Made by a program: the position numbers and the translations under genes
Shown: one piece after another, positions 4,443 through 39,817 of the stretch
Layout: the number at the start of each line of letters is the position of its first letter
Numbering within the stretch: the first letter of the stretch is position 1
Source: Eunapius fragilis
Taxonomy: Eukaryota; Porifera; Demospongiae; Spongillida; Spongillidae
Reading direction: 5' to 3'
Assembly: GCA_963681505.1 (NCBI GenBank)
Contig: OY811983.1
Span: 3,206,615 to 3,270,614, forward strand
DNA length: 64,000 nucleotides
Notes under the pieces: generated by a model
What the model was told of the DNA's origin: nothing
Seen by the model: only the letters and a program-made list of their open reading frames with translations
The model's database searches: none

Positions 4443-4507
<65 letters not shown>

Positions 4508-4509
4508 CA
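4443..4509. repeat. (CA)n microsatellite
   Basis: About 30 consecutive CA dinucleotides. The Cys/Val-rich reading frames across it are artefacts of the repeat. Confidence 0.95.
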
Positions 4510-4780
4510 CCTTAATATTTGATCCTCTGTTCTTGTAAATCAATCAAGCCTCATGTGTGGGGGGAGGGGGCAATATTCACATCAAGACGGATTTCTGTCA
4601 TCAGCAGTAGCCTCCTGGGTAAGTGCCTTCATGAACCAGCATCTATTTCAAAAATTATGTAATACGCATTTTCAATGACGGATACACTCCAGTACAAACC
4701 CAGAAGCATCACTTGCCGTTGTTGCTTTGAATTAGTGCCGTTGTTGCTTTGAATTAGTTGTGACAATCTTGCCATTGCAG

Positions 4781-5868
4781 CGTACAGCAAAGGTCGTCCT
4801 GACTTCCTTGTGCAAGGCAAGACATAACTGTACTCAGCCTGGGAGTCAGGTGAGCATATGCATTATAACCATGCAGATTTAAACTGCCTGGGTGGAACTA
4901 AGCGCATGCGCTGGGAATTGCGGATGAAATGTTGACCCTATAAAACTGTGAACGTTTTCCTTCAACCCTATAAAAAACTAAACCTTGACCTAATCTCCAT
5001 ATTCCCTATAGCCAAACGCTGCACTCCATCGATACAAAACCTTGCGAGCCAGTTAAAGTACACTTATAAGTTGTCATAACTAAGTCGTGCATTTTTACAA
5101 TAGGCTTCATGATCATTCAGTACACTGCTGCTGCCCTTGGTAAGCCACAAGACCATCCTTCTAATGACCACGCAAATAATATTCCTTATTAACCTATGCA
5201 TATGTGCGGCAATAAGTATCCAACTAGACATCGCTGATCTGAGTGGCTATAAAATGTGTCAATCGTCGGCTTGGTGGATAGTGATTAATAAAATTCAGTT
5301 CATTGGAGCTGTGTCATTAAAATTAAGTACTGCATGGATTATAACTTTATCAACATAATTATAGTAATTACTGATCTGATGTATACATAACTCATCCTAT
5401 ATACAGTGTCAGAGAATAAAGTGCTGACCCACCCCTCTACCATGGATTCTATCAGCACATGTGCCGGAACCGAAGATCACGTGTCCATGGGTGGTTTCGC
5501 GGCCAGAAAGGCTCTGCAAGTAGTGAGCAACGTGGAACACGGTAGGACCAGGATGGCTATATACGAATAGAGGAATGTGCCTATATAGAAGATGTAATAC
5601 GAATCGAAATGTATATACGCTCTTGACTATTGATCATTTTGAATGCAAAAAAATTTGCGCTTAAAGTTTACATGCAGTGCTATCATTGCAGTGATGGCTA
5701 TCGAGCTTGTCAAGCGATCGACCTGAGGCTTCCCAAGAAACTATCTGGTCCTCTTCGCGATGTGTATGACATTGTCCGAAAGCATATCAGGTGACGTCAT
5801 TGTTATGCAGAATGCTTGCATTACCGAACCACACACACACACATACACACACACACAACACACAACAC

Positions 5869-5963
<95 letters not shown>

Positions 5964-6144
5964 TGTACGTGCACACACAGCACCTTGGATAAGGACAGGT
6001 TCATGGGCCCGGATATAGAAGCAGCTGTGAAAATGGTCAAAGAGGGACAGGTGGGCTCAAATAAAAGCCCTTCAATACCATTTACATTTGTATTTCTTAT
6101 AGATTTGGGATGCTGTGGTGCCACACCTTTCACGACAAGAGTAG
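4781..6144 (+). pseudogene. Decayed genomic copy of HAL exons 13-18
   Basis: Six blocks match the last six exons of the HAL gene at 24270-25526, with all introns kept: 4781-4849, 5104-5139, 5407-5541, 5692-5790, 5981-6050 and 6103-6144. The copy therefore arose by DNA duplication, not retroposition. It is broken. The exon-13 copy diverges after AYSKGRPDFLVQGKT and hits an in-frame TAA near 4831. The exon-16 copy lacks ten bases (ATTGTGGCTT of the intact gene), which shifts the frame into a TGA. The last exon ends early at TAG 6142-6144. No copies of exons 1-12 were found in the window. Intron 16 has grown a CA tract of about 140 bp. Flanking intron sequence is still very similar, so the duplication looks fairly recent. 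Confidence 0.88.
5823..5978. repeat. (CA)n microsatellite inside the HAL pseudogene
   Basis: A long, slightly interrupted CA tract occupying the intron that corresponds to HAL intron 16. The same intron of the intact gene has only a short CA-rich stretch (25261-25302), so the tract expanded in, or was lost from, one copy. The His/Thr- and Cys/Val-rich frames here are meaningless. Confidence 0.95.
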
Positions 6145-7120
6145 CATATGTAGTTAATTGACATTATAAGTGCCCTTGATCAAAACAATGTCATTGAAGT
6201 AGGGAATGCTATGCATGCATGTGATTAATTATGTCCACAATATAATATTGTTGCTTGTTTTGGTTTGTGCATGGATTTGGAGATAATACGACCTGCAACG
6301 AGGGAGGGGGGTATGTATACGTCTGTTTTGGGGTGCAAGCATGATGTTGCTTTCACTTGCATTTTGAAGTTTCATGGTGATACACCAATTAAACTATTAC
6401 ACTTATTTATGTTTGCACATATAGTGACATTTTTTAACATCAAAATTTAATGTCATGTCACATAAATCTAGACATATTTTATATACCCACTCAGTACATG
6501 CTTTTCTTCAGTGATGACTTCTACCATCCATTTCATGATTCATTTCTCCGGCTTGCAGTAAAATGTGCACATCTATACACACCATTGTCAGTAAAACATG
6601 CTCCTTGATTGTATTCACACTACACCTCCCTCAATCTTGATATACTGGAAACCCTCGATGCCCCTCCCTCATACATCACCTTCACCACTGATCACAAGGG
6701 TACCGTTACACCCTTTTTCTCTTCTACACCAACAAACTCTTCTCCCTAGCTGCAGAAACATCCTCTCCAGCAAGATGCCCTTCATCCTTCCACACGACTT
6801 TAGGACACACCCCTCCACAGCTGCAGGACCATCTCCTCATATCCCTGTCCTTCCCCGTTATGAGTTGAGACCGGAGTAGCTTTGCAACAATTTTAATTGC
6901 CATGCTAGGCCATTTTGGTTGATCTGGACATTGGGAGTTCTCCACTAAGTCAACTATGAAAGAAGAGTATTCTGGTTCATACATTCTGGAGCAGCTTGCG
7001 CTTGATTATATGTAAGTGTTCAGGATGGTATTATGGACTGGTGAGGTTGATTATCATCAGATGCACCTTTCTACAGTCAAAAGTACAAGGATCCTTGGAT
7101 TTCATTGAAATGATCACTTC
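6145..7120. other. No gene seen
   Basis: Frames such as 6598-6879 are pyrimidine-rich and without recognisable domains. No supported exon. Confidence 0.45.
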
Positions 7121-7129
7121 AGAAACCTT

Positions 7130-7620
7130 TAACAACCTGCAGACATCCGGGGACATTTTCACACACAGATTACACTGGTTTCTGAACTACAGAAACTGCA
7201 ATGTAGTTGCTGTTGAATTGTGTAGTCATGAGTGTTGCTATAGTATGTTTGCATGCATGAGAAAGTGTTAACATATTTAAAGGAATGTGTGGCTTTCAAG
7301 ATGTAGTAGTGAGTTGGAATTATCTCAGAAGAAAATGGGTGACATTGAAATGGACCACTGCCTGTGAACGTGTTTTACAGCTAACTGAATGGGCTCCTTC
7401 CTAATGAATGCAACAAATTCCTTTTCTTATTGTATGAGGTCAGAGCTATTTGGTACTTCACCAAATGAAAGCCTATTTGGTTACCATTACTAGTACCATT
7501 AGCCGTCATAACAAATGCAGAGGTAACCCTCATGTTGTCATACCATCATGCAGGCACCTCGTTGCCAATGTATGAACTTTTATGAGAGATAGCAGTACCC
7601 CTGGGGTCTACCGTTTGCAT
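7130..7620 (+). repeat. Left arm of a diverged inverted repeat (partner 11400-11880)
   Basis: The segment reads, on the opposite strand, like 11400-11880. Shared landmarks include GCAATGTAGTTGCTG, ATTGTATGAGGTCAG and the block TATTTGGTACTTCACCAAAT followed by GAAAGCCTATTTG. Short reading frames in both arms share a motif of the form NR..RN.NVVA with downstream Cys/Tyr residues, so the repeat unit once had coding potential. Divergence is substantial, with several indels. Confidence 0.7.
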
Positions 7621-8207
7621 GTATACCCTAGGGATGGACGACGTGTCACAATGAGACCATTTTGTATAAGTCTGGTTGAACAGACTTAGTGCAGCCTTTG
7701 GTAAACATCTACAACTGTGTTTTTGCCAATATCTGCACTCTCTGCTGTGTCACTTTGCCTTGCCCAGAAGTGGAGTAGCATCACCCACTTCTGCAAGATC
7801 ATATGTGACTTGACAAGAACCTTTAGTGCTCCTCTTGTTTAACTAGAGGGCACTTCCATCCCATTCCATCCTTTACATTACTTCTAACAAACCACGGGGC
7901 TGGTGGAGCCATTGGATGATGAAGCACAATAAATTCATCACTGCACCGCTATTACCTTGCATACTAGAGACAGCATAGATTAGTAAACTCTTACATCTTA
8001 AAAGCCGGACCACTGCAACATTTTCACCAAATATCATGCAGCCAAATGACAAAAGTAGCCTAGCAATACTACACTAGTCGGCACTACTACCGCTTAATAT
8101 GGAGCATGACGTTCTAGAAGACCACAGAGGGTTAAGAACAATTACTTTCCCGGTACTATTCTTTCATAACTGAATACCATCATGATTTAGAATAACCCCT
8201 TATTCCA
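7621..8207. other. No gene seen
   Basis: No open frame of note and no recognisable repeat. Confidence 0.45.
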
Positions 8208-27394: not shown

Positions 27395-27436
27395 ACCCCG
27401 TTGAAGTTAGCCGCACATTCCTCAGCCGCACATTTT
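27395..27436 (+). repeat. Left terminal inverted repeat
   Basis: Two copies of the submotif AGCCGCACATT are spaced by a few bases behind the terminal ACCCCGTTGAAGTT. It pairs with 38811-38863. Confidence 0.8.
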
Positions 27437-28009
27437 ACAATGAATAAGTTAACATTCCACTAGCGGCGGGCGGCGGATGCGTGCGCTTGATGACTGTGTG
27501 AGGTTGGTCCACGGTTGTCGATATGACCATTCTAACGGCGATGCTTAGGACATGGTAGGTACGCAACGCATCTAAGTCTCAGCTCTCACCAAACTCAGAG
27601 AATATAATATAAAACGCCCATGACTATACACGAATTGAATCAAAAATCAAAAATGACACACCATGCATGCGACGGTACAGAACGGGTCCAAACCAATTGA
27701 TCAATTGATTTGGACCAATTGATTCATAGCTCAGGTTGTCAACCAAATCAATTTCATGATTGGGTAACATGCACCCAGCTTACATGTATATGAAAAGTGC
27801 ACGCACCACTGGTTTCCAACATTGAGGGACTGAGTTGCACCATGCTCTGAACCACCATTCATCTTATGAAATAGTGCATTGAACTGAATTCATGCAGTGC
27901 TATAGTTGTTATGACACAATCCTTTGTTTTGTCATGTACATATATAGGCAGCCTGCATGTGTGCAAATCAGTTCAAACATATTGAAGCAATACATTATTC
28001 TTCACTGGG

Positions 28010-29965
28010 GATGGATGCCACCTCTGTAAGTTCTAAAGCAGATCCAGTCATTCTGATGACAATTCCCTGTTCCCACAGGGGAGGTGTGTACATGTGAGGA
28101 TGGGGAACCCAACGCCACGCGTAGTTCCCCAATGCCTGGCCAACTTGTGAGTGACCCCCAAATGAAATTATTCACATATCATCTTAACTGAAGATGGATG
28201 CCACCTCTGTAGTTCTAAAGTGGATCCAGACATTCTGTTGACAGTTCCACGTTCCCACAGGGGAGGTGAGTACATGTGAGGATGGGGAACCCAACGCCAC
28301 GCGTAGTTCCCTAATGCCTGGCCAACTTGTGAGTGACCTCCAAATGAAATTATTCACTATCATCTTAACTGAAGATGGATGCCACCTCTGTAAGTTCTAA
28401 AGCAGATCCAGACATTCTGATGACAGTTCTATGTTCCCACAGGGGAAGTGAGTACATGTGAGGATGGGGAACCCAATGCCACGCGTAGTTCCCCAATGCC
28501 TGGCCAACTTGTGAGTGACCTCCAAATGAAATTATTCACTATCATCTTAACTGAAGATGGATGCCACCTCTGTAAGTTCTAAAGCAGATCCAGACATTCT
28601 GATGACAGTTCTATGTTCCCACAGGGGAAGTGAGTACATGTGAGGATGGGGAACCCAATGCCACGCGTAGTTCCCCAATGCCAGGCCAACTTGTGAGTGA
28701 CCCCCAAATGAAATTATTCACATATCATCATAACTGAAGATGGATGCCACCTCTGTAAGTTCTAAAGCAGATCCAGACATTCTGATGACTATTTCCTGTT
28801 CCCACAGGGGAGGTGTGTACATGTGAGGATGGGGAACCCAACGCCACGCGTAGTTCACCAATGCCTGGCCAACTTGTGAGTGACCTCCAAATGAAATTAT
28901 TCACTATCATCTTAACTGAAGATGGATGCCACCTCTGTAAGTTCTAAAGTGGATCCAGACATTCTGATGACAGTTCCACGTTCCCACAGGAGAGGTGAGT
29001 ACATGTGAGGATGGGGAACCCAACGCCATGCGTAGTTTCCCTATGCCTGGCCAACTTGTGAGTGACCTCCAAATGAAATTATTCACTATCATCTTAACTG
29101 AGGATGGATGCCACCTCTGTAAGTTCTAAAGCAGATCCAGACATTCTGATGACAATTCCCTGTTCCCACAGGGGAGGTGAGTACATGTGAGGATGGGGAA
29201 CCCAATGCCACGCGTAGTTCCCCAATGCCAGGCCAACTTGTGAGTGACCCCCAAATGAAATTATTCACATATCATAACTGAAGATGGATGCCACCTCTGT
29301 ATGTTCTAAAGCAGATCCAGTCATTCTGATGACAATTCCCTGTTCCCACAGAGTAGATGTGTACATGTGAGGATGGGGAACCCAACACCACACGTAGTTC
29401 CCCAATGCCAGGCCAACTTGTGAGTGACCCCCAAATGAAATTATTCACTATCATCTTAACTGAAGATGGATGCCAGCTCTGTAAGTTCTAAAGCAGATCC
29501 AGACATTCTGATGATAATTCCCTGTTTCCACAGGGGAGGTGTGTACATGTGAGGATGGGGAACCCAACGCCACGCGTAGTTTCCCTATGCCCGGCCAACT
29601 TGCGAATGACCCCCAAATGAAATTATTTAGATTTCATCTTAACTGAAGATGGATGCCACCTCTGTAAGTTCTAAAGCAGATCCAGACATTCTGATGACAG
29701 TTCTATGTTCCCACAGGGGAAGTGAGTACATGTGAGGATGGGGAACCCAACGCCACGCGTAGTTCCCCAATGCCTGGCCAACTTGTGAGTGACCCCCAAA
29801 TGAAATTATTCACTATCATCTTAACTGAAGATGGATGCCACCTCTGTAAGTTCTAAAGCAGATCCAAACATTCTGATGACAGTTCCATGTTCCCACAGGG
29901 TAGCTGTGTACATGTGACGATGATGGGTGACAATGCCATGGCTAGTTCCTGGATGCTGTCTCCTT
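28010..29965 (+). repeat. Eleven-copy 182-bp tandem repeat array
   Basis: Units start at 28010, 28193, 28374, 28556, 28739, 28921, 29103, 29283, 29465, 29648 and 29830, so the period is 180-183 bp. The last unit degenerates. Each unit has GATGGATGCCACCTCTGTAA, then GTTCCCACAGGGGAGGTGAG, then CACGCGTAGTTCCC and CCAACTTGTGAGTGACC. Divergence between units is small. Each contains splice-like signals: a GTAAGT donor, a pyrimidine-AG acceptor (CCCACAG) and two GTGAGT donors. The 60-codon minus-strand frames inside are by-products of the repeat. The array lies between the left inverted repeat and the element gene, where subterminal transposase-binding repeats are often found. Confidence 0.95.
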
Positions 29966-30377
29966 CCTGGGACCATCTTAACAGTGGCCTACTGTGACGA
30001 CACTTTTAAGGATAATCATGTGATCTGAATGGTGCTGCAAGATCGATGTATATATTTGGAAGATGCAAAACTATGATACATTTCAGTACATTTTTATTTA
30101 TTTAGTTTTAAACCTGAATTCGCGTTGGTGTGGAGCATGTGTTAGTTGAAAGGTTTTGTGTGCAGATATGAACAGATGAAACCTGAGGAGTGGCTAAGAT
30201 CAATTGCAGAAGTGTTGTCAGTAATTTTATAATTAGATATATAGACTTCATCTAAACAGATTTGTGAAGTATTCTAATCCATTCGTATTGTGTTTTTGAT
30301 AGGGTTGAGGAGGGGCCTTCACATCCTCTTGTGAGTTTTGGATTGAGTTAGGAGTGGCCTTCACATGCTCTAGAACT

Positions 30378-33300
30378 ATGGTCGGGGTATATTTTCCCTG
30401 GGTGCATATCTATGACCCAGTGCATGAGAAGGATGTATTGGGTGGGGCCAATCATTTGTATATAAAGGGAATTTATCATCCCAGCACATTTGTACACTAC
30501 TGCAGTAACCTTGGGATGGTAAGTTATCTTTCATTTGCATGATATATGTATGTATTTTATACAATGTGTTGGGGATGCCAATAGCCACCAGTGAGAAGAA
30601 AGTACAACATTGAACCTAGAGCATTTGTAAAGTACATAACAGATACAGGGGAGATACCTCCTAAGAATGCATCATGTGTTGGACCAAATGGCTACTGGTA
30701 TCTTGCTGCACAAGCGTTATCAGGGAAATCACATCCATCATTCAAATTCGTGACTGCAGTTGCTTCATACTGGTACCACAATCGAGCTGATGTTTGCTCC
30801 TCTGTATACAAAATAATTGGTTTGGGTCATTATCAGGTAGGATTGTGTTCATCAAGTACAGGATCACTGCATGGTGCTAACTGCATGCCAATTCTGCTGT
30901 TTGTACATATACCAAAAGGGATTTTATTTTCAACTTATCAGAACTAGCACAGATATTTAAAAAAAAATACTAACACTAGTTTAATCCAGTTTGTGATGTT
31001 ATTTTTTCCCATGCATGTAGACTTGCGCAACGGATGGAGCTGATGAATCTGAAACAGTTCTTGTTAGAAACGTGTCTGACTGTGTGCAAGTAAATATCAT
31101 GGAAGGAGAGAGTAACGATGACATGAAGGAAAGTGATAATGGCAGGGCTGTAATCGATGTTGAGTGTGTCAAACAATCAGTTGGTGTTGGTTTGGAAGAA
31201 GGGGCCAGTGATGAAGAAGGGGCCAGTGATGGTATGGAAGAAGGGGTAAGAGATGGCGTGAAAGAAGGGGTTTGTGATGGTGTGGTAGAAAGGGCTAGTG
31301 ATGAAGAAGGGGCCAGTGGTGGTAAGAAAGAAGTGGTAAGAGATGGTGTGGAAGTAATGGCTAATGATTGTGTGCAAGAAGTGGCGAGTGATGGTATGGA
31401 TGAAGGGATCAGTGTTGGGGCCTGTGATGATGGGGTTGAATTGGGCTGTAGAGATGAATGCAATATTGAGGATGGGAGAGTGGAGCATGTGGAAAGGGTA
31501 AAAGAACTTGATTTGCATTGCATATGCAAGCAGCCATACAGTTCCAAGAGGTAATTACTGTTATAAATACTATTTGTAGAATTTTACATCTCTTTCCAAG
31601 GTTTATGATAGGATGTGACTATTGTAGTGAGTGGTTCCATGGTAACTGTGTAGGAGTAACAGAAATGGAATCAACACACATCAGTTCATTCAAATGCCCT
31701 ATGTGTACCTCAAAATGTGCTATGGTACCTTTCTATAATGAAGGTAAAGTACACGGACCCAGTGTACTTTACATGAATAACACCAATTATCAATAGATAC
31801 ATCCCTGAATGAAGAAGTCAGTGATCCAAGAATCGAATCACATCAATATCAGGTACAGATGGGTTTAAGTGAATTTCAGCTTATTTTGAATGCTAATCAA
31901 TATATTGTATAGGGCAACAGTAAACAATATGTTATTCATGTACATGTGCCATTTAAATGGCCCAAATATATGTCTTGCTTACAGGGAATGGTTGTATCAA
32001 AAACTACAGCAGAGTGCTCAACACGCTTTGTACCCATGGAGGAAGTTGTACAATTGCACATTCCTAGTTATGGATGCTTCAATATAGCCAAATCGCTATG
32101 GAGCGTGATGTTTGGTGGGGGTAAAAGTGATCCATCATGGGTACATATAATGGCAGAAGGGCTCTCAAATTTGAATAGCTGTTGCTGCTTTGCCTTTAAA
32201 AGGCACTGGATCAAGAATACTGTGTCGCAAAAGAAAACATCAGCATTATTTAAAGCAAATGCATATTGTACATTTGAAACATGCAACATAGTTGCTGTTT
32301 TATCTGTGAATAATTTAAGATTGCAAGATGACCAAATCACTGTGCATGTCCACTTCAATGGTACGCTTCAGCACAGGAATGACGAGATACATGCTCGACG
32401 CATCAGCTATTCAGCAAGGCAAAAGATTTGTGAGAGGTTTCAAGAAACAAATGTTGCTCCAGCAAAAGAATACCACACCAGGTTAATGCAGTTGGGACCA
32501 GAGCAGTATGCATTTGGCAATCGAGATGGAGTTGGGTGTTCTTTGTCTGTACTGCAAAAGGTCTCTTCTGATGCGCGACTTCAGCTGCAAGAAGATAGAG
32601 ACCTTATCATGTCACTGCTACTTCTTAAAAAGAAGCTTATTGCTCTGGAAAGTGCCAATGTAGCTGGTAATATAAAACGAAAGAAATCCCCAGTTAAAGG
32701 CTTCATACAGCATGTACATGCATCACCATTTTCTGTGATCTGTTTTAATGAAGCGGCTGTTCGGCTATACCATGAGATTGCTAAACAGGGAGCTGTATTT
32801 TGTGATGCTACAGGTACTATTGTCTCGCTACCAAAAGATGAAGGAAAGGTCCCAACTGTGTACTACTATGCTATAGTATTAAAACATCCAACCAAAGATA
32901 AACCACCCATTGCTGTTGCAGAGCTGATCACAAGTGATCACACTGTGCTTTCAATCTCATACTTCCTTGAGTCTTTTCGGAGAGCAGAAGGGATTTTGTT
33001 TTCACAACCATCTAAGCCGCAGCAAATCATTATTGATAGAAGCCAAGTGCTTCTTTTAAGTTTCTTGCATGTATATAATGCAGAAACATTGCAGGAATAT
33101 TTGCTCAGGGCATTTCGAATTGTTACAGGGACGGCCAAACCACAGGATGCTGGAAAAATATCCCCACATGCATGCAAAAGCCATGTGATGAACTCTGCTA
33201 AGAGAGAATGCAAGAAATGGTGAGTGTTTATTATGTCAAGAAGACTCTGTAAGTAATAATTTTTATTTTCTTTTTTGATGCATCACATGTAGGTCTCAAA

Positions 33301-36300
33301 ATCAGCAGTACAGATTTATCATGTATTCTTTTGCAATCATGGTTAATTCCCGCACCCTTTCTGACCTTGTTAAAATAGTATGACTTCTAAAACTCCTGCT
33401 GTGTTCAAGAGTTAAATCTCTGTCTATGATTGAATCACATGATGCCTTAGTAGACATAATCAATGGTTTTAATGATGTATTAGATGAGAACCAGCACAAT
33501 GATGGAGAAACGTCATATGAGGAAATTTTTGATGATGATAAAATTGGGATTTGCAAACAGCCCTTTGGTAGCTTTTTTCAACTTCAGTTGGAGAAGGTGG
33601 AAGTTAGTAATGCAGGAGAAGAGGATAATTTGTACTATAAGCCAGAGTTCTTTGCAGCAATAGTTAGCAATTGGTTATACATGGCACCTTTTTGGACAGC
33701 TCTGTTGTTAGGTATGATATATAAATGTAACTATAATTACATCATTAAGAATCTGTTTAATAGGAGACCCTGCTTGCCACCGAGAGGAATACAAAGGAAA
33801 TGGCTCCGTGCAAGTATGTTTTTCACTCATTCACATGCAAGTACATGTCATGTAGAGATGTTCTTAACCAGTGCTTTATATATATATAATTTATATAGAT
33901 ATAATATATATATATATATCAATGCAGTATGTTGAACATACTACAGCTGGTACTATAGAAGGCTGGAATTACATCTTAAAACACATAGATCATAAAGAGA
34001 AACATATGAGACCAGATGTGTTCATTCAGAAGCACTATCCTGTAATGGTGGGAAGACAGCGTCAATTCTATGATGATTTTAAAAAGCCATACAGGAAATG
34101 TGTTAAGGTTTGAAACTGCTGTATAATCATAGTGCCATGAGATTCATGCATTATTGTGCAGCGATGTGTCAAAGTAAAACCATCTAATCTTTTACGTGAG
34201 AAGTGGACTAAAAGGAATAAGGATAATCCAGCTCCAAATCCATTACGTGGTTACTTTCAGCAGAAACCATCTAAGCCACTGACCCATCTTCCCACCCTTC
34301 CAAGGTACATACTAATGTCATTTATATTTAATTCATTATTTTAAAAACAGCACTAGCTCTCAAATGAAGGCACCAGCAGACATCACCCAAATGAACACAG
34401 AAGAGAGGTATAATCAAATAATATAGCATTGAGTATTTGCAACAAACATCTAATGTTCTGAAATGATTTTTTATAATCATAGAGGCTCATATATGCTGAT
34501 TCAAAACAGTGTACCTACTCCATCCACCACGTAAGCTGACTAGCAAAGCAATAATTATGATATTATAATTATATTATATTATACATATTGTTTTATTAAT
34601 TATATTGTGATGGTAATGTCAAGCTGTAATCTATTTCTATTCCAGAGACAGTGATTCATTGGTCATCCCTGAGAATGTATCATCAATTTCTACTTCATCC
34701 ATCCTGTAAGCTTTTTGTGCTCTTCTACTGAAAGTAATGTTTTTTGTCTTTGTTTATTAAGTGAGCCTGTTTCAAAGACACCAGTGAGTAGATATACTCA
34801 TCTATATGGTTCATAAATCATATATTTACCTTTCCATTAAGGGTATTAAGGTTTATACAGGAGAAGTGCTGCAAGTAGCCAGGAATATTAACAGAGGCCT
34901 AAGTAACGCATCCAGATTTTGTTGGCTAAATGCAGCCCTACAAGCTCTCTGTGCCTGCACACAATTGCAACTTATGTTAAAAAGTAAAAGTTGCAATATT
35001 TTTCGTGTATTTATCTTGATACATTGCTATAGCTTTGAAGAAAGAATACCTCACACCACTTCAGGAAGAATACATTGATATAACTGATGAACTTCAAGGT
35101 AGTTCCAGTCAACCTTGCGATCCTTCAATACTTGCTGTAAGATGAATTGATGCTTTATGGTAATATAATTTAAATTATATTATTTACCTGTTATGTAATA
35201 GCATATACTTAGCATGTCAAAGAAAGCCAATCATTTACAAAAGGATATTGAAAATGACTGTTGTGAGGGAATAACTGTGTTGCTTGATGAGCTTTTATCA
35301 GTTCATGAGGTATGTAATTTGGATGTTATATATTGGTACAAGTTACATAATTTGTTTAAATGCAGGCCTCTGGAAATGACTACACGAGCCACTTTGCTAC
35401 AAGGATAGTTAAACAGGCATCATGCTGCACAAAGGTTTATATTAATAAGTTACATATGTTTGTTACAAATGGCTTCCTTAGACCATTCATGAGGCTTCAA
35501 TGTGGACAGTGCTATCATGTGGTGTTTCCACTGAGCAGCATAAAGGAAACAGCATAACTGAGTTGATAAAAGTTTGGCTTGATGAGTACATAGTACAATT
35601 ACATCAAGTACTGTAAACATGTCTCATGCTGCCTAGGAAGATGCATTTAATCGGAAATGATTGATTAGATTCTGCGAAGCCTGTGATAAGCGGCTGTCTA
35701 TAGACAATGTGCAAGTGACATTCCCTAGTGTTTTAATCCTTCATTATGAGAGATCAAGGGTGGCAGATTTGCAGAAAGCACAGAATAGTGTAATTGTACC
35801 AAGGTAAATGAATACGTGTAGCATTGGGTTCAATCATGGCCACATTATCTTGCAGGCAGTTCAAGCTCTGTCATGCAAGTGCCACAGGGTGTCCTACTTA
35901 TGAACTTTGTGCTTTAGTGGTATGAGAAAACACACATAGCCCATATAACTATAATTTATTTTCAGCTTCATCACGGAAAATATGCAAATGAAGGTCACTG
36001 TAAGAGTATACTGAAATTAATTATTACACATAACATAGTGCACCTGCTTTCTCAGATTCATGTGTAGCCAAAAGTAGTGATGAATGGATAAGTTACAGTG
36101 ACTGTATTGTCAGGAAGATATCAGCAACTGATTACAACTCATCCAGATATGTTCAGGTATACATATATTTACTGTATAACTTATGATTCATAAATCTGTG
36201 ACCTCTGCAGAATAATGTCTGTGTTGCAATATACATAGCCCCTATGAGCAATGTAAGTAAATGTAATTGGTGAAATCATTATATAGTACTGATATGGTTA

Positions 36301-38508
36301 TGCAGGCCATTATTGACAAAAGTAGTTCATTTTGTCTTGAAGCTCATGCAAAATTGGCAAGTTACAATTGATCTCATTATATGCATTCATGTAATGCATA
36401 CATACATGGCTACAGGTTAACTGTGGTTTATCTCCACAACTGGAATTTGAGGTTCTGCTCACTTGCAACTATTTCTTATACAATGAACTAATGTTCACAC
36501 TTGTAATTTTTTAAAGGTTAAACAGAAAGTACCAATCCCACATACAATGCTTCAGTTGGAGAGACAAGATCTTATAAGCTTAGCTTCTGGGATGTGGATG
36601 GATGCCAAAGTGGGGGTTTGGTATATATTTAAATAGCTTATAATTTATGTAATTATACTTGCAGGGAATTTCCTCATACATGAAGTTACTAATGCACACT
36701 TCCCATAAGGTAGCCATCGTTATATGTGCAGTGCATTTACAAACATTTGGCTTCCACAGAAAGGGAAGCATATATAGTATGCTTTGATCCATCATTCTTG
36801 CCTTCACTAAAATCTAAGGGTCACCAAGGTGTTGTAAGGCATTCCAAAGTGAGTTGCATAATTATGTGTATAGCATTTAGGATACTTATTGTCAAATTGT
36901 AGGGGCAGAGTTTATTGGATTGTGATGTTCTCATTTTCCCAATACATAAACCTTTTCATTGGAGCTTAGTGGTAGGTAAAAGGTCTTAATGAAGATGATT
37001 TATATCCTGTATGCTTGGGTTTTCATGTTATAGGTTGTGTACCCACAAACCTGTACCATTTTTGGTATTGACTCACTCCACAACAGTGATGAGGATGCTG
37101 TGAACTGGATATGGTATAAATATAAACAATAGATTTAAACTTGTATAAATTTTGATGGAACTGTTTCACTCAGGTTATATCTCAATTGTGAAGTGCACTG
37201 CCGCACTAACACTACAATATCATGCTCAGAGTGGAGTTACAGTGATTCTTTGGTGTGTTTCCATCCTATGGAAACATAATTCAATAAACATGTTATATAA
37301 ATATTGATATTAAATGTATCACCTTCTGCTTGTCACATTTCAGAACAGCAAATTGCCCAGGCAGGAAAACACAAGTGACTGTGGTGTGTATACATGTCTA
37401 GTAAGTTAATTTTATACATCATTATTTATGTATAATGCAATAATATTGCACAACAGGCTGCTAGGCTTGTGTTGGAAAATGTTACAATTGAATACAGCCA
37501 AGTACACTGCTAAAGTGTCCAGCCCTTTTAAAAGTATTTCACTTTCAGGATATGGTGGAAAGGTTTCGTCTCCAAATGGTGCATGAGCTCTCAGTTGGTG
37601 ATTTGTTCCTTATGAAGATATCAACAGGTCAATAACTATTCAGGATAAAATAGCATGCATTACTGTCTTTTTTTTTTACTTGGTTTCATAAGAGAATGCT
37701 GTGGATAAGGTATGGATTTGGTAGTGACATTAGCTTATTATCCTTTCTTGTTTACTTGGATAGGAAAACACTACTTCATTGCCCATCAATACTCATCATA
37801 AAGCTGTTATTTTACCTGAAGACAGTAGGATATGCTACATATGAAATAAACGGTGATGCATATATTTTACGCTTTTTTTACCCCGCTCCAGTGCATTGCA
37901 ATGACAATATAAGTGAAACCGTTTCGAATCAAAGTACCTCTGACCACAATGATAGCAGTAATGACAGCATTCCGAGTAGTTATGAAAGAGGCTGTGTTGG
38001 CTCTAAGGATGTGGAGAACTTCCTGATCCCATCTTACTACAACAAGCCAGATGTGGATGATATATGTGCTCTGAAGTGGGGTTTACATCATTACATTAAG
38101 TTCTTTCCCTCATTGAGAAGACCTCCTTACACGTAAGATCACCTACAGCTTTCTAATTTTCATATTAATAATCCTTGAAATATATAGTGAACACCAGTGC
38201 CCTTTCAGTAGAAACTTCATAAGGAAAGTTGTGAAGGACATGGAGGTAAATATATATGTGATGTGAGTTCTATGCCTTAAGCATCATATCGTAGCCAAAG
38301 ATAAGAAATTTGCTGATGGGACTAACACAATCTGAATATCGCACCCAACATCATGCACGAGCTATCCAACAACTCAACAGAGTTGATAGAGACTGGCCAT
38401 TACAGAAGTGCCTGGATATGGTATGTGTATATCAGAATGATGGTCTTACAATAACAATATGATTTAATAAACAAGTATCAGAAATATCCCTTTTCATAAT
38501 AGAGGTAG
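30378..38508 (+). CDS. PHD-transposase-USP-Ulp1 multidomain element protein (one in-frame stop)
   Basis: One phase-consistent chain of about 40 small exons, roughly 1,800 codons. The first exons are 30378-30518, 30585-30836, 31021-31550, 31601-31743, 31797-31852, 31985-33219, 33293-33711, 33764-33813, 33928-34107, 34162-34304, 34351-34407, 34483-34530, 34646-34705, 34762-34783, 34842-34983, 35033-35136, 35202-35309, 35366-35434, 35482-35585, 35669-35803, 35856-35919, 35966-35999 and 36056-36156. Further short exons run to about 38419. The stop could be the TAG at 38506-38508. Domain order: N-terminal globular region, acidic Gly/Glu/Asp repeats, PHD finger, DDE-like core, linker, USP, Ulp1, C-terminal region. 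The only lesion found is TGA at 33381-33383. No ATG-supported upstream exon was found, so the true start may lie further left. It is not a host gene I recognise. Confidence 0.72.
30585..30836 (+). other. N-terminal region of the element protein, weakly OTU-like
   Basis: The segment around GPNGYWYLAAQALSGK has the general shape of the OTU-protease start (a Gly-Asn-Cys-Leu-Phe box followed by a helix ending in Gly). The catalytic Cys position is occupied by Trp. If related, it is a dead OTU fold. This is a weak resemblance only. Confidence 0.2.
31021..31500 (+). other. Acidic degenerate peptide repeats of the element protein
   Basis: About ten imperfect repeats of the form EEGVRDGV / EEGASDEEGAS, Glu/Asp/Gly/Val-rich and strongly negatively charged, encoded by units of 24-36 bp. 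Probably disordered. The Ser/Pro- and Phe-rich frames on the opposite strand are mirror artefacts. Confidence 0.8.
31515..31735 (+). other. PHD finger
   Basis: Across the exon 3/4 junction: HCICKQPY, then MIGCDYCSEWFHGNCVG, then FKCPMC. This is the Cys4-His-Cys3 zinc pattern with the WFH signature of chromatin-reading PHD fingers. Confidence 0.9.
32700..34107 (+). other. DDE transposase-like core
   Basis: VFCDATGTIV (first Asp), QQIIIDRSQVLLLSFLHVYN (second Asp), HACKSHVMNSAKRECKKW (Cys/His cluster) and YVEHTTAGTIEGWNYILKHI (candidate Glu) occur in the order and spacing expected of an RNase H-fold transposase. From memory, proteins with CDATG...VYYYA....P.AVAE and a following D are frequent in sponge, coral and lancelet genomes. 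I cannot name the superfamily. The TGA at 33381 falls between the second Asp and the Glu. Confidence 0.6.
33381..33383 (+). other. In-frame TGA in the transposase region
   Basis: The frame reads VNSRTLSDLVKIV, TGA, LLKLLLCSRVKSLSMIESHD without loss of phase. Treating the segment as an intron breaks the phase, because the donor at 33378 is phase 0 and no matching acceptor exists. One substitution from TGG or CGA would explain it. Confidence 0.7.
34842..36252 (+). other. USP-type deubiquitinase domain (C19)
   Basis: Cys box NRGLSNASRFCWLNAALQAL (catalytic Cys codon 34920-34922), a zinc-finger-like FCEACDKRL with FPSVLILHYERSR, and the His/Asp box split across an intron: HGKYANEGHYSCV then EWISYSD (His codon 35996-35998). 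This matches the Cys-His-Asp order of ubiquitin-specific proteases. The domain is shorter than most host USPs. Confidence 0.8.
36500..37630 (+). other. Ulp1-type SUMO protease domain (C48)
   Basis: The region contains IFPIHKPFHWSLVVVYP (His codon 36957-36959), IFGIDSL (Asp 37070-37072) and PRQENTSDCGVYTC (Gln and catalytic Cys, Cys codon 37380-37382). Spacing and order are those of Ulp1/SENP peptidases. An upstream LISLASGMWMDA then ISSYMKLL fits the usual start of the domain. All triad residues are intact. Confidence 0.88.
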
Positions 38509-38810
38509 AAAGCGATATTAACGCTACTGCGTCAGTTTCTGAATCACAAACAAATCAATTCATCGTTTGGCCTGAAGTAACCTACATTCTTCAGTACTAG
38601 TACTTATTCAGTGATTCCCTTTTCAGATTATCACTGCTCTTATAATGACGCAGTTTAATACAACCCGAGAAGCGGCTATTTCGCATGTCCTTACCCACAC
38701 ATTGCCATAATAACTGCAAATACAAACCTATACATTACACAATCAATGAATATTCAAAACGAAATGATTATCATTAGCCGTACGGCCTAATTGTACGTGA
38801 TAATTGCTTG

Positions 38811-38863
38811 GAATGTGCGGCCGAAGAATGTGCGGCTGAATGTGCGGCTAACTTCAACGGGGT
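38811..38863 (-). repeat. Right terminal inverted repeat
   Basis: Reverse complement of the left end, here with three copies of the GCCGCACATTC submotif instead of two. Confidence 0.8.
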
Positions 38864-39134: not shown

Positions 39135-39817
39135 CCGGCCATGGCCTGACCTAGTCTGGGGACCCGACTGATGGCTGTACTATCAGTCTGGTGACTTGAT
39201 CGCATCCGTTTTGTGCACTAGTTGGTATCATGAAATCTCATGAATATAATAATGTGGATAACGGTTTACCTACATGTATCACTGCACAAGGAGTACTAGT
39301 CCCCAGACTATTTAGCATTAGTATGGCGGCTAATCTTTCTGTCCTTTGTGGATATGACCTTACCAACCTTCCACTCGAAAGGCGGAGCCTTAACGGAACA
39401 TCTTCAACTAGCGTTGTACGTTTATGGCGGATGTTCGCGCAATATAGGAAGGCAGACATAACAAAGACTCTTGCCATATCCAGTTGGTAACACTTCAAAA
39501 ACGTCCTGCCCAGTGGCTATAGCTAAAACTACTTCCAACTGAAGGCTCTTTATCTCGGTAAACCTAAGTCTTTCCACAGCGTAATGGATAACATCCGTAT
39601 ATCGGCCATTACAAAAAACACGTGGTATAGATTTATATTATTCATATCGTTATGGCTTGTAGTTAATGACATACATGCTCGTAGGTGGGGCATAAATTAG
39701 ATTCATGCTACTGCACGAATTCGTGCAGTAGTGCACAAAACGGATGCGAGCTAGTCACCAGACTGATAGTACAGCCATCAGTCGGGTCCCCAGACTAGGC
39801 CTGACCGGCCGGACTGG
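39135..39817. mobile_element. 0.68-kb element with inverted repeats of about 85 bp
   Basis: The left arm 39135-39222 has CTAGTCTGGGGACCCGACTG, ATGGCTGTACTATCAGTCTG and CGCATCCGTTTTGTGCACTA. The right arm 39725-39817 is its reverse complement with few differences. The interior carries only a chance 86-codon frame on each strand. A 24-bp perfect palindrome abuts the right arm. Confidence 0.85.
39709..39732. repeat. Perfect 24-bp palindrome
   Basis: The left half CTACTGCACGAA is followed exactly by its reverse complement TTCGTGCAGTAG. It sits at the inner edge of the right arm of the 39.1-39.8 kb element. Confidence 0.95.

Follow-up and report, generated by a model that had tools for sequence, protein, structure and literature searches.

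An 11.5-kb locus in the window (the whole 64,000-nucleotide stretch of Eunapius fragilis DNA analyzed here) is best explained, with a probability of about two in three, as a cut-and-paste transposon of the Rehavkus type that would encode one large predicted transposase, in which an N-terminal PHD finger and a DDE core are followed by a ubiquitin-specific protease (USP) and a SENP-like SUMO protease (Ulp1), suggesting that the element may edit host protein tags while it moves. We observed the ends of the element, its 9-bp target-site duplications, the co-occurrence of its domains throughout the family and the conservation of their catalytic residues.

The locus is enclosed by 26-bp terminal inverted repeats (27395-27420 and 38838-38863) that are 100% complementary. 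A search of the whole genome (219 Mb, 24 contigs) with a 25-base end sequence, allowing at most 3 mismatches, found 85 forward and 80 reverse matches, i.e., 165 places, and none in either orientation with the reversed-pattern control. A second end pattern, which included free positions and allowed at most 1 mismatch, found 102 and 92 places, with a control count of 0. Because the end sequence is repeated genome-wide and its controls gave zero, it marks a family of transposons rather than a palindrome that arose by chance, confirming that the locus is a real multi-copy eukaryotic DNA transposon. A short GCCGCACATT motif occurs twice at the left end (27395-27434) and three times at the right end (38812-38863), and these end motifs are possible transposase binding repeats.

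For comparison with the window, 20 copies were taken from pairs of facing ends. The coding region was present in one of them (L036), at about 97-99% identity to the window. The remaining 19 shared the left end, to about position 30237 at most, plus extra minisatellite, and the right 1.5 kb was common to them where that region was covered. The 182-bp minisatellite lies on one side only in the window, and most other copies also carry it inverted on the opposite side. One non-autonomous copy, L041, contains ORFs at 4447-8022 that appeared Gypsy-like by eye; we therefore rejected them as passengers of the element and regard them as resembling a Gypsy retrotransposon insert.

Target-site duplications were initially scored in 17 pairs of ends (16 copies and the window), leaving out L036, L039, L041 and L044, whose sequence was covered for 10 kb and therefore did not reach one end. 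An exact 9-bp duplication accompanied eleven of these pairs (in one case it lay in poly-G), and a control of mismatched pairs gave 2 matches in 272 at no more than 1 mismatch, both presumably from pairing L045 with L046, which have flanks in common. In these two copies the 9-bp duplication is identical and so are the flanks (TTACGGCCCCGGTT / GCCCCGGTTACGGG), as would be expected from a repeated target or from segmental duplication. Exact 8-bp matches next to the ends were limited to 1 of the 17, the poly-G case. Ten further elements brought the total to 27 bracketed elements, 17 of which had exact 9-bp duplications (including the uninformative poly-G), while 2 had a duplication off by 1 base, L035 and the C1 11.1-Mb element had a partial duplication with two mismatches and 6 had no 9-bp duplication (the window, L029, L032, L038, L043 and C2). 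In the C2 element (core at 5294576), both ends were present and the duplication was absent.

A preliminary description of this DNA had proposed that one phase-consistent exon chain encodes an acidic region, PHD finger, DDE core, USP and Ulp1, in that order, between the inverted repeats, and our results bear this out. The spliced gene model (30378-38601) has 41 phase-consistent exons, with GT at 39 of 40 donor sites (the other being GC), AG at all 40 acceptors and introns of 46-184 bp (median 56). The acidic repeat region lies at 31180-31418, the domains follow in the proposed order (Table 1), and all of them are found between the perfect repeats. As a prediction, the spliced model is compatible with one gene running through the linker that separates the transposase and protease parts. 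An earlier 40-exon model was dropped when comparison with the paralog L050 showed that its apparent stop and frame break within the USP were artifacts of an overlooked intron and an incorrectly placed acceptor; a CxxC motif taken as part of the USP was likewise dropped, as it was in the wrong reading frame.

Spliced alignment to the window of the proteins of two paralogs, both taken from a superseded first gene model, reproduced 23 of 41 exons exactly for L049 (29 starts and 28 ends; 2 frame breaks, 3 stops) and 18 of 41 for L051 (24 starts and 26 ends; 3 frame breaks, 4 stops). The disagreements were mostly in the acidic region, the linker, the middle of the USP and the C-terminal linker. In the window copy, exon 7 contains an in-frame TGA, the frame is broken in exon 29 and there is no target duplication, so this copy looks dead. 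L036 is open at both of these places but has lost 380 bp of the USP and carries other small changes; both copies look dead and decayed.

Table 1. Positions of the element's features in the window.
Feature	Position	Strand	Remarks
Left terminal inverted repeat	27395..27434	+	26 bp perfect; repeated AGCCGCACATT motif
Subterminal minisatellite	27999..29922	.	182-bp unit, 10.6 copies
Exons 1-2	30378..30836	+	conserved N-terminal domain, no Pfam match
Exon 3	31021..31550	+	acidic repeat region and first half of PHD finger
Exon 4	31601..31743	+	remainder of PHD finger; nearest solved BPTF, PHF2, PHF8, CXXC1
Exon 5	31797..31852	+	
Exon 6	31913..33219	+	DDE-type core with D1 (CDATG), D2 (IDRS) and C..H motif
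Exons 7-9	33293..34107	+	remainder of DDE core, E (TAGTIEGWN); TGA in exon 7
Exons 10-14	34162..34783	+	linker, little conservation beyond exon 10
Exons 15-24	34842..36252	+	USP (Pfam UCH), Cys and His boxes
Exons 25-35	36306..37627	+	Ulp1/SENP-like protease (Pfam Peptidase_C48), H, D, Q, C; frame break in exon 29
Exons 36-41	37693..38601	+	conserved C-terminal domain of unknown function; stop codon ends at 38601
Right terminal inverted repeat	38812..38863	-	three GCCGCACATT-type motif copies

The preliminary description also called for Pfam profile searches of the predicted protein, and these placed the PHD finger, UCH and C48 above their cut-offs, while the transposase core was left without a Pfam family. 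The PHD finger matched at 4.3e-8 in the window and was above the cut-off in L049, L050 and L051 as well, although its first half is unresolved in the L049 model. Its nearest solved relatives are fingers that we take to be H3K4me3 readers, and at the positions that we assume from BPTF and PHF8 to form the binding cage, the residues are Y-Y-M-W in L050, Y-F-M-W in L051 and H-Y-M-W in the window. For the DDE core, neither window exon 6 nor the L049 core had a Pfam match at E<=1, and no PDB sequence match was found. D1 and D2 are separated by 76 residues, E lies 227 residues after D2, and the D, D, C..H and E are kept across the aligned paralogs; thus, catalysis by this core is predicted from its motifs and their conservation.

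The USP of the window matched UCH at 4.2e-26 across profile positions 1-246 of 254, and pieces from the first gene model gave 1.4e-28 for L049 and 9.4e-27 for L050; its nearest solved relatives are USP21, USP12 and USP46. The Cys and His boxes are present, and the Cys and His themselves are identical in all four aligned copies (window, L049, L050, L051). In known USPs the third catalytic residue is Asn or Asp; here, L049 and L051 have N, L050 has D and the window has S. The Ulp1 domain matched C48 at 5.2e-20 in the window (profile positions 32-206 of 217) and at 1.4e-20 in L049, with its H, D, Q and C identical in the same four copies; SENP1/2 are its nearest solved relatives (L049 vs SENP1, 1.5e-23). 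Both proteases look able to strip their tags, ubiquitin and SUMO. The conserved N-terminal (67 aa) and C-terminal (117 aa) domains had no Pfam match above the cut-off in the window (30585-30836 and 37892-38601), L049 or L051. The window USP region (34842-36252) also gave a weak match, below the cut-off, to Peptidase_C98 (USPL1-type SUMO isopeptidase; 2.4e-4).

To be more than a peculiarity of one decayed copy, the domains should occur together elsewhere, as the preliminary description anticipated, and a genome search upheld this. In addition to the 165 end places, the DDE core gave 105 genomic matches that fall into 64 loci, including fragments. On the same strand downstream, a USP (within 9 kb) was found at 47 of the 64, an Ulp1 (within 16 kb) at 42 and both at 41, the Ulp1 counts being lower bounds. 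For the three wrong placements (same strand upstream, opposite strand upstream and opposite strand downstream), the counts were 0, 0 and 1 for USP and 0, 0 and 0 for Ulp1. The one opposite-strand downstream pairing joins the core at C7:2441232 (+) with a USP at C7:2443059 (-); this core is in pieces with stops, so it is likely a rearranged fragment. From the other direction, 18 of 65 USP clusters were without a core within 9 kb upstream, and some of these may be fragments or host genes.

The domain order of the window recurs exon by exon in three paralogs (L049, L050 and L051), at core identities of 61, 57 and 53%, including the N- and C-terminal domains where these were covered, and L036 has the same order. 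The recurrence of this order in other copies shows that the architecture is no accident of the window copy. In the L049 model there is no stop, and its 4 frame breaks all fall upstream of base 1400 (the end of the N-terminal domain and the acidic region); from its core to its C-terminal domain, 1448 codons are open without a stop or frame break. The L050 model has 2 frame breaks and 3 stops, and the L051 model has no breaks and 1 stop. The L049 domains lie in a 17,753-bp element (C1:17034381-17052133) flanked by an exact 9-bp duplication; its matching ends (ACCGCTTAGAAGTTAGCCGTACATTC) show a clear relationship to those of the window. A 165-bp unit, arrayed in inverted orientation in 26.7 and 30.2 copies, accounts for about 9 kb of the 17.8 kb. 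The element (L049 with L052-L055) is inserted into an ORF that, judging by a motif, resembles an aldo-keto reductase. For L051, the right end was found and the left end was not found within 2.2 kb upstream; for L050, there was no element end in the 9.2 kb covered. Two C3 elements bracketing core matches both measure 13,323 bp from end to end, and their exact duplications differ, which, as read from the ends alone, suggests recent movement.

We also compared L049 with its close relative L071, from which it differs by 1.2% in exons and 2.0% in introns, using revised exons. The two proteases together had 8 synonymous changes at 308 sites and 9 nonsynonymous changes at 1156 sites (Fisher p=0.014). 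Separately, the counts of synonymous and nonsynonymous changes were 6 and 6 for the USP (ratio 0.27, p=0.026), 2 and 3 for Ulp1 (ratio 0.39, p=0.27), 8 and 12 for the DDE core (ratio 0.40, p=0.049) and 3 and 3 for the C-terminal domain (p=0.09). A previous protease count on the old exons (10 and 9 changes, p=0.002) was withdrawn in favor of the revised value. With a stop in the core and another in the USP, L071 is probably dead as well. Although the changes are few, this comparison suggests purifying selection on the protease codons; conservation across the paralogs is the stronger argument.

With respect to classification, Rehavkus elements are described as having 9-bp duplications, terminal inverted repeats of 26-400 bp, a PHD finger and a minisatellite, and arthropods and annelids are their reported hosts in the accessible portions of PMC6446971. 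The family described here resembles them in its 9-bp duplications (absent from the window copy), in its 26-bp repeats, which fall within that range (PMC6446971), and in its inverted ends and the PHD finger within the transposase protein (PMC6446971, PMC10218199). It also has inverted terminal tandem repeats, with unit lengths of 165 bp in L049 and 182 bp in the window compared to 164 bp in the 9.5-kb Rehavkus-1_TC (PMC6446971, PMC10218199). We therefore regard the element as probably Rehavkus-type and MULE-allied, a membership that rests on structural features. It differs in possessing a USP and an Ulp1, which are not mentioned for Rehavkus in the accessible portions of PMC6446971 and PMC10218199; the words ubiquitin, Ulp1 and peptidase do not occur in what was available of the main text of PMC6446971, nor do ubiquitin, PHD and Ulp1 in that of PMC13359780, where Rehavkus serves as an outgroup.

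Other transposons share parts of this composition. Ginger1-9_HM, like the present element, has Ulp1 and PHD together with the transposase in one protein, but the Ginger1 core is integrase-type with GPY/F, its Ulp1/OTU and PHD are C-terminal, and USP is not listed in the portions available (PMC2836005). No Pfam match to a core of this Gypsy-integrase type was found here at E<=1. Ginger1 target duplications are 4 bp in length. A Trichomonas vaginalis protein combines transposase_11 with Peptidase C19 and is thus similar in joining a USP-type domain to a transposase, but the transposase is of another family and the available text mentions neither Ulp1 nor PHD (PMC2836005). KDZ (Kyakuja-Dileera-Zisupton) elements likewise have eukaryotic DDE-type transposases, with 8-bp duplications in Zisupton (PMC12730594, as far as accessible) vs 9 bp here. 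The preliminary description knew of no earlier account of the combination. In the literature searched, we found no transposase gene with both USP and Ulp1, which Repbase and most subscription papers, outside this scope, may record; the pairwise precedents (Ulp1 with PHD, transposase with C19) were already published in PMC2836005. The novelty would accordingly lie in the fusion of USP and Ulp1 within a putative Rehavkus-type element.

Could the element instead be an ordinary Ulp1-bearing MULE of the kind reported from hydra, lancelet and plants (PMC2836005, in part), with the USP as a minor addition? Its Ulp1 passenger, its C..H motif and its 9-bp duplications, which fall within the 8-11 bp of MULEs (PMC6446971, in part), agree with this, and canonical MULE hits do lie 2-3 kb from C48 hits elsewhere (C9:2294561/C9:2297524, C9:7429911/7432121 and C9:9767317/9769541); MULEs of the ordinary Ulp1-bearing kind thus seem to be present in this genome as well. 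However, none of the 45 genomic hits of Pfam MULE (PF10551) was closer than 7.9 kb to any core match, and the L049 core had no Pfam match at E up to 1; we consider this reading improbable. Compared with Ulp1-bearing MULEs, the protein also carries a USP, and its finger is a PHD rather than the SWIM/FLYWCH type that the accessible literature gives for many MULEs. Chance trapping of host USP and SUMO protease genes between the ends, with no role in the element, is more improbable still. MULE-type elements are known for host-gene capture, and the window and L036 copies are decayed, but the order, spacing and catalytic residues are equal in paralogs of 53-61% identity and the order recurs at 41 of 64 loci, and the selection suggested on the protease codons (p=0.014) also argues against it.

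A more substantial, though still unlikely, alternative is that two adjacent, unfused genes are mobilized together, one for a PHD-DDE transposase and the other for a USP-Ulp1 protease. The weak conservation of linker exons 11-14 would fit two genes, as would an AATAAA and an ATTAAA found in the linker of L049 and a further ATTAAA in that of L050. Against this, canonical phase-consistent splicing continues through the linker in the window, and in L051 one open 277-base exon (older model) joins the Ser/Pro-rich linker with the USP Cys box. Neither signal occurs in the window and L051 linkers, a weak test since none was found at the gene's 3' end either in the window, L049 or L051. The single-transposase reading is preferred at the probability given above; counting against it are the barely conserved linker exons, the AATAAA in the L049 linker, the failure of the DDE core to match any Pfam or PDB entry, the Ser at the third USP residue of the window, the small selection counts, the stops in L071, the six elements without duplications and the 17 of 64 core loci at which no USP was detected.

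If one protein does carry all of these domains, the PHD finger would tether the transposase to H3K4me3-marked active chromatin, and the DDE core would cut at the ends and make a 9-bp staggered insertion. The proteases might remove ubiquitin and SUMO from the transposase, or from chromatin or repair proteins at donor or target sites, and thereby stabilize the transposase or blunt SUMO-dependent silencing, by which transposons are repressed in animals. A dual ubiquitin/SUMO eraser with an H3K4me3 reader that strips both tags at active chromatin and counters such silencing is a speculative extension, and we consider it rather unlikely as a whole; if true, it would mean that a eukaryotic DNA transposon brings along its own two anti-silencing enzymes. 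Reports of Ulp1 and OTU proteases in transposons, with suggested roles, go back at least to 2010, and for Ginger1 the accessible text proposes that they act in transposition (PMC2836005). A corresponding role here, in which the proteases serve transposition chemistry or repair by deconjugating the transposase or repair factors, unrelated to host silencing, is a tentative but real possibility; it is a sub-case of the single-transposase reading that sequence cannot separate from counter-defense. We know of no experimental test of the roles proposed for such proteases. A conserved deubiquitinase and deSUMOylase in a family of 64 loci (some fragments) permits a direct genetic test, in which protease-dead and wild type versions could separate transposition chemistry from silencing escape, and the finding adds detail to the little-studied Rehavkus group.

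To the right of the element, a second inverted pair (39143-39220 and 39729-39806) has arms of 78 nt that are 94% complementary and 508 nt apart. Between these arms, an ORF on the minus strand (39425-39637) gave a weak DEAD helicase match (9.5e-5, below the cut-off) and is reminiscent of RecQ-like helicases.
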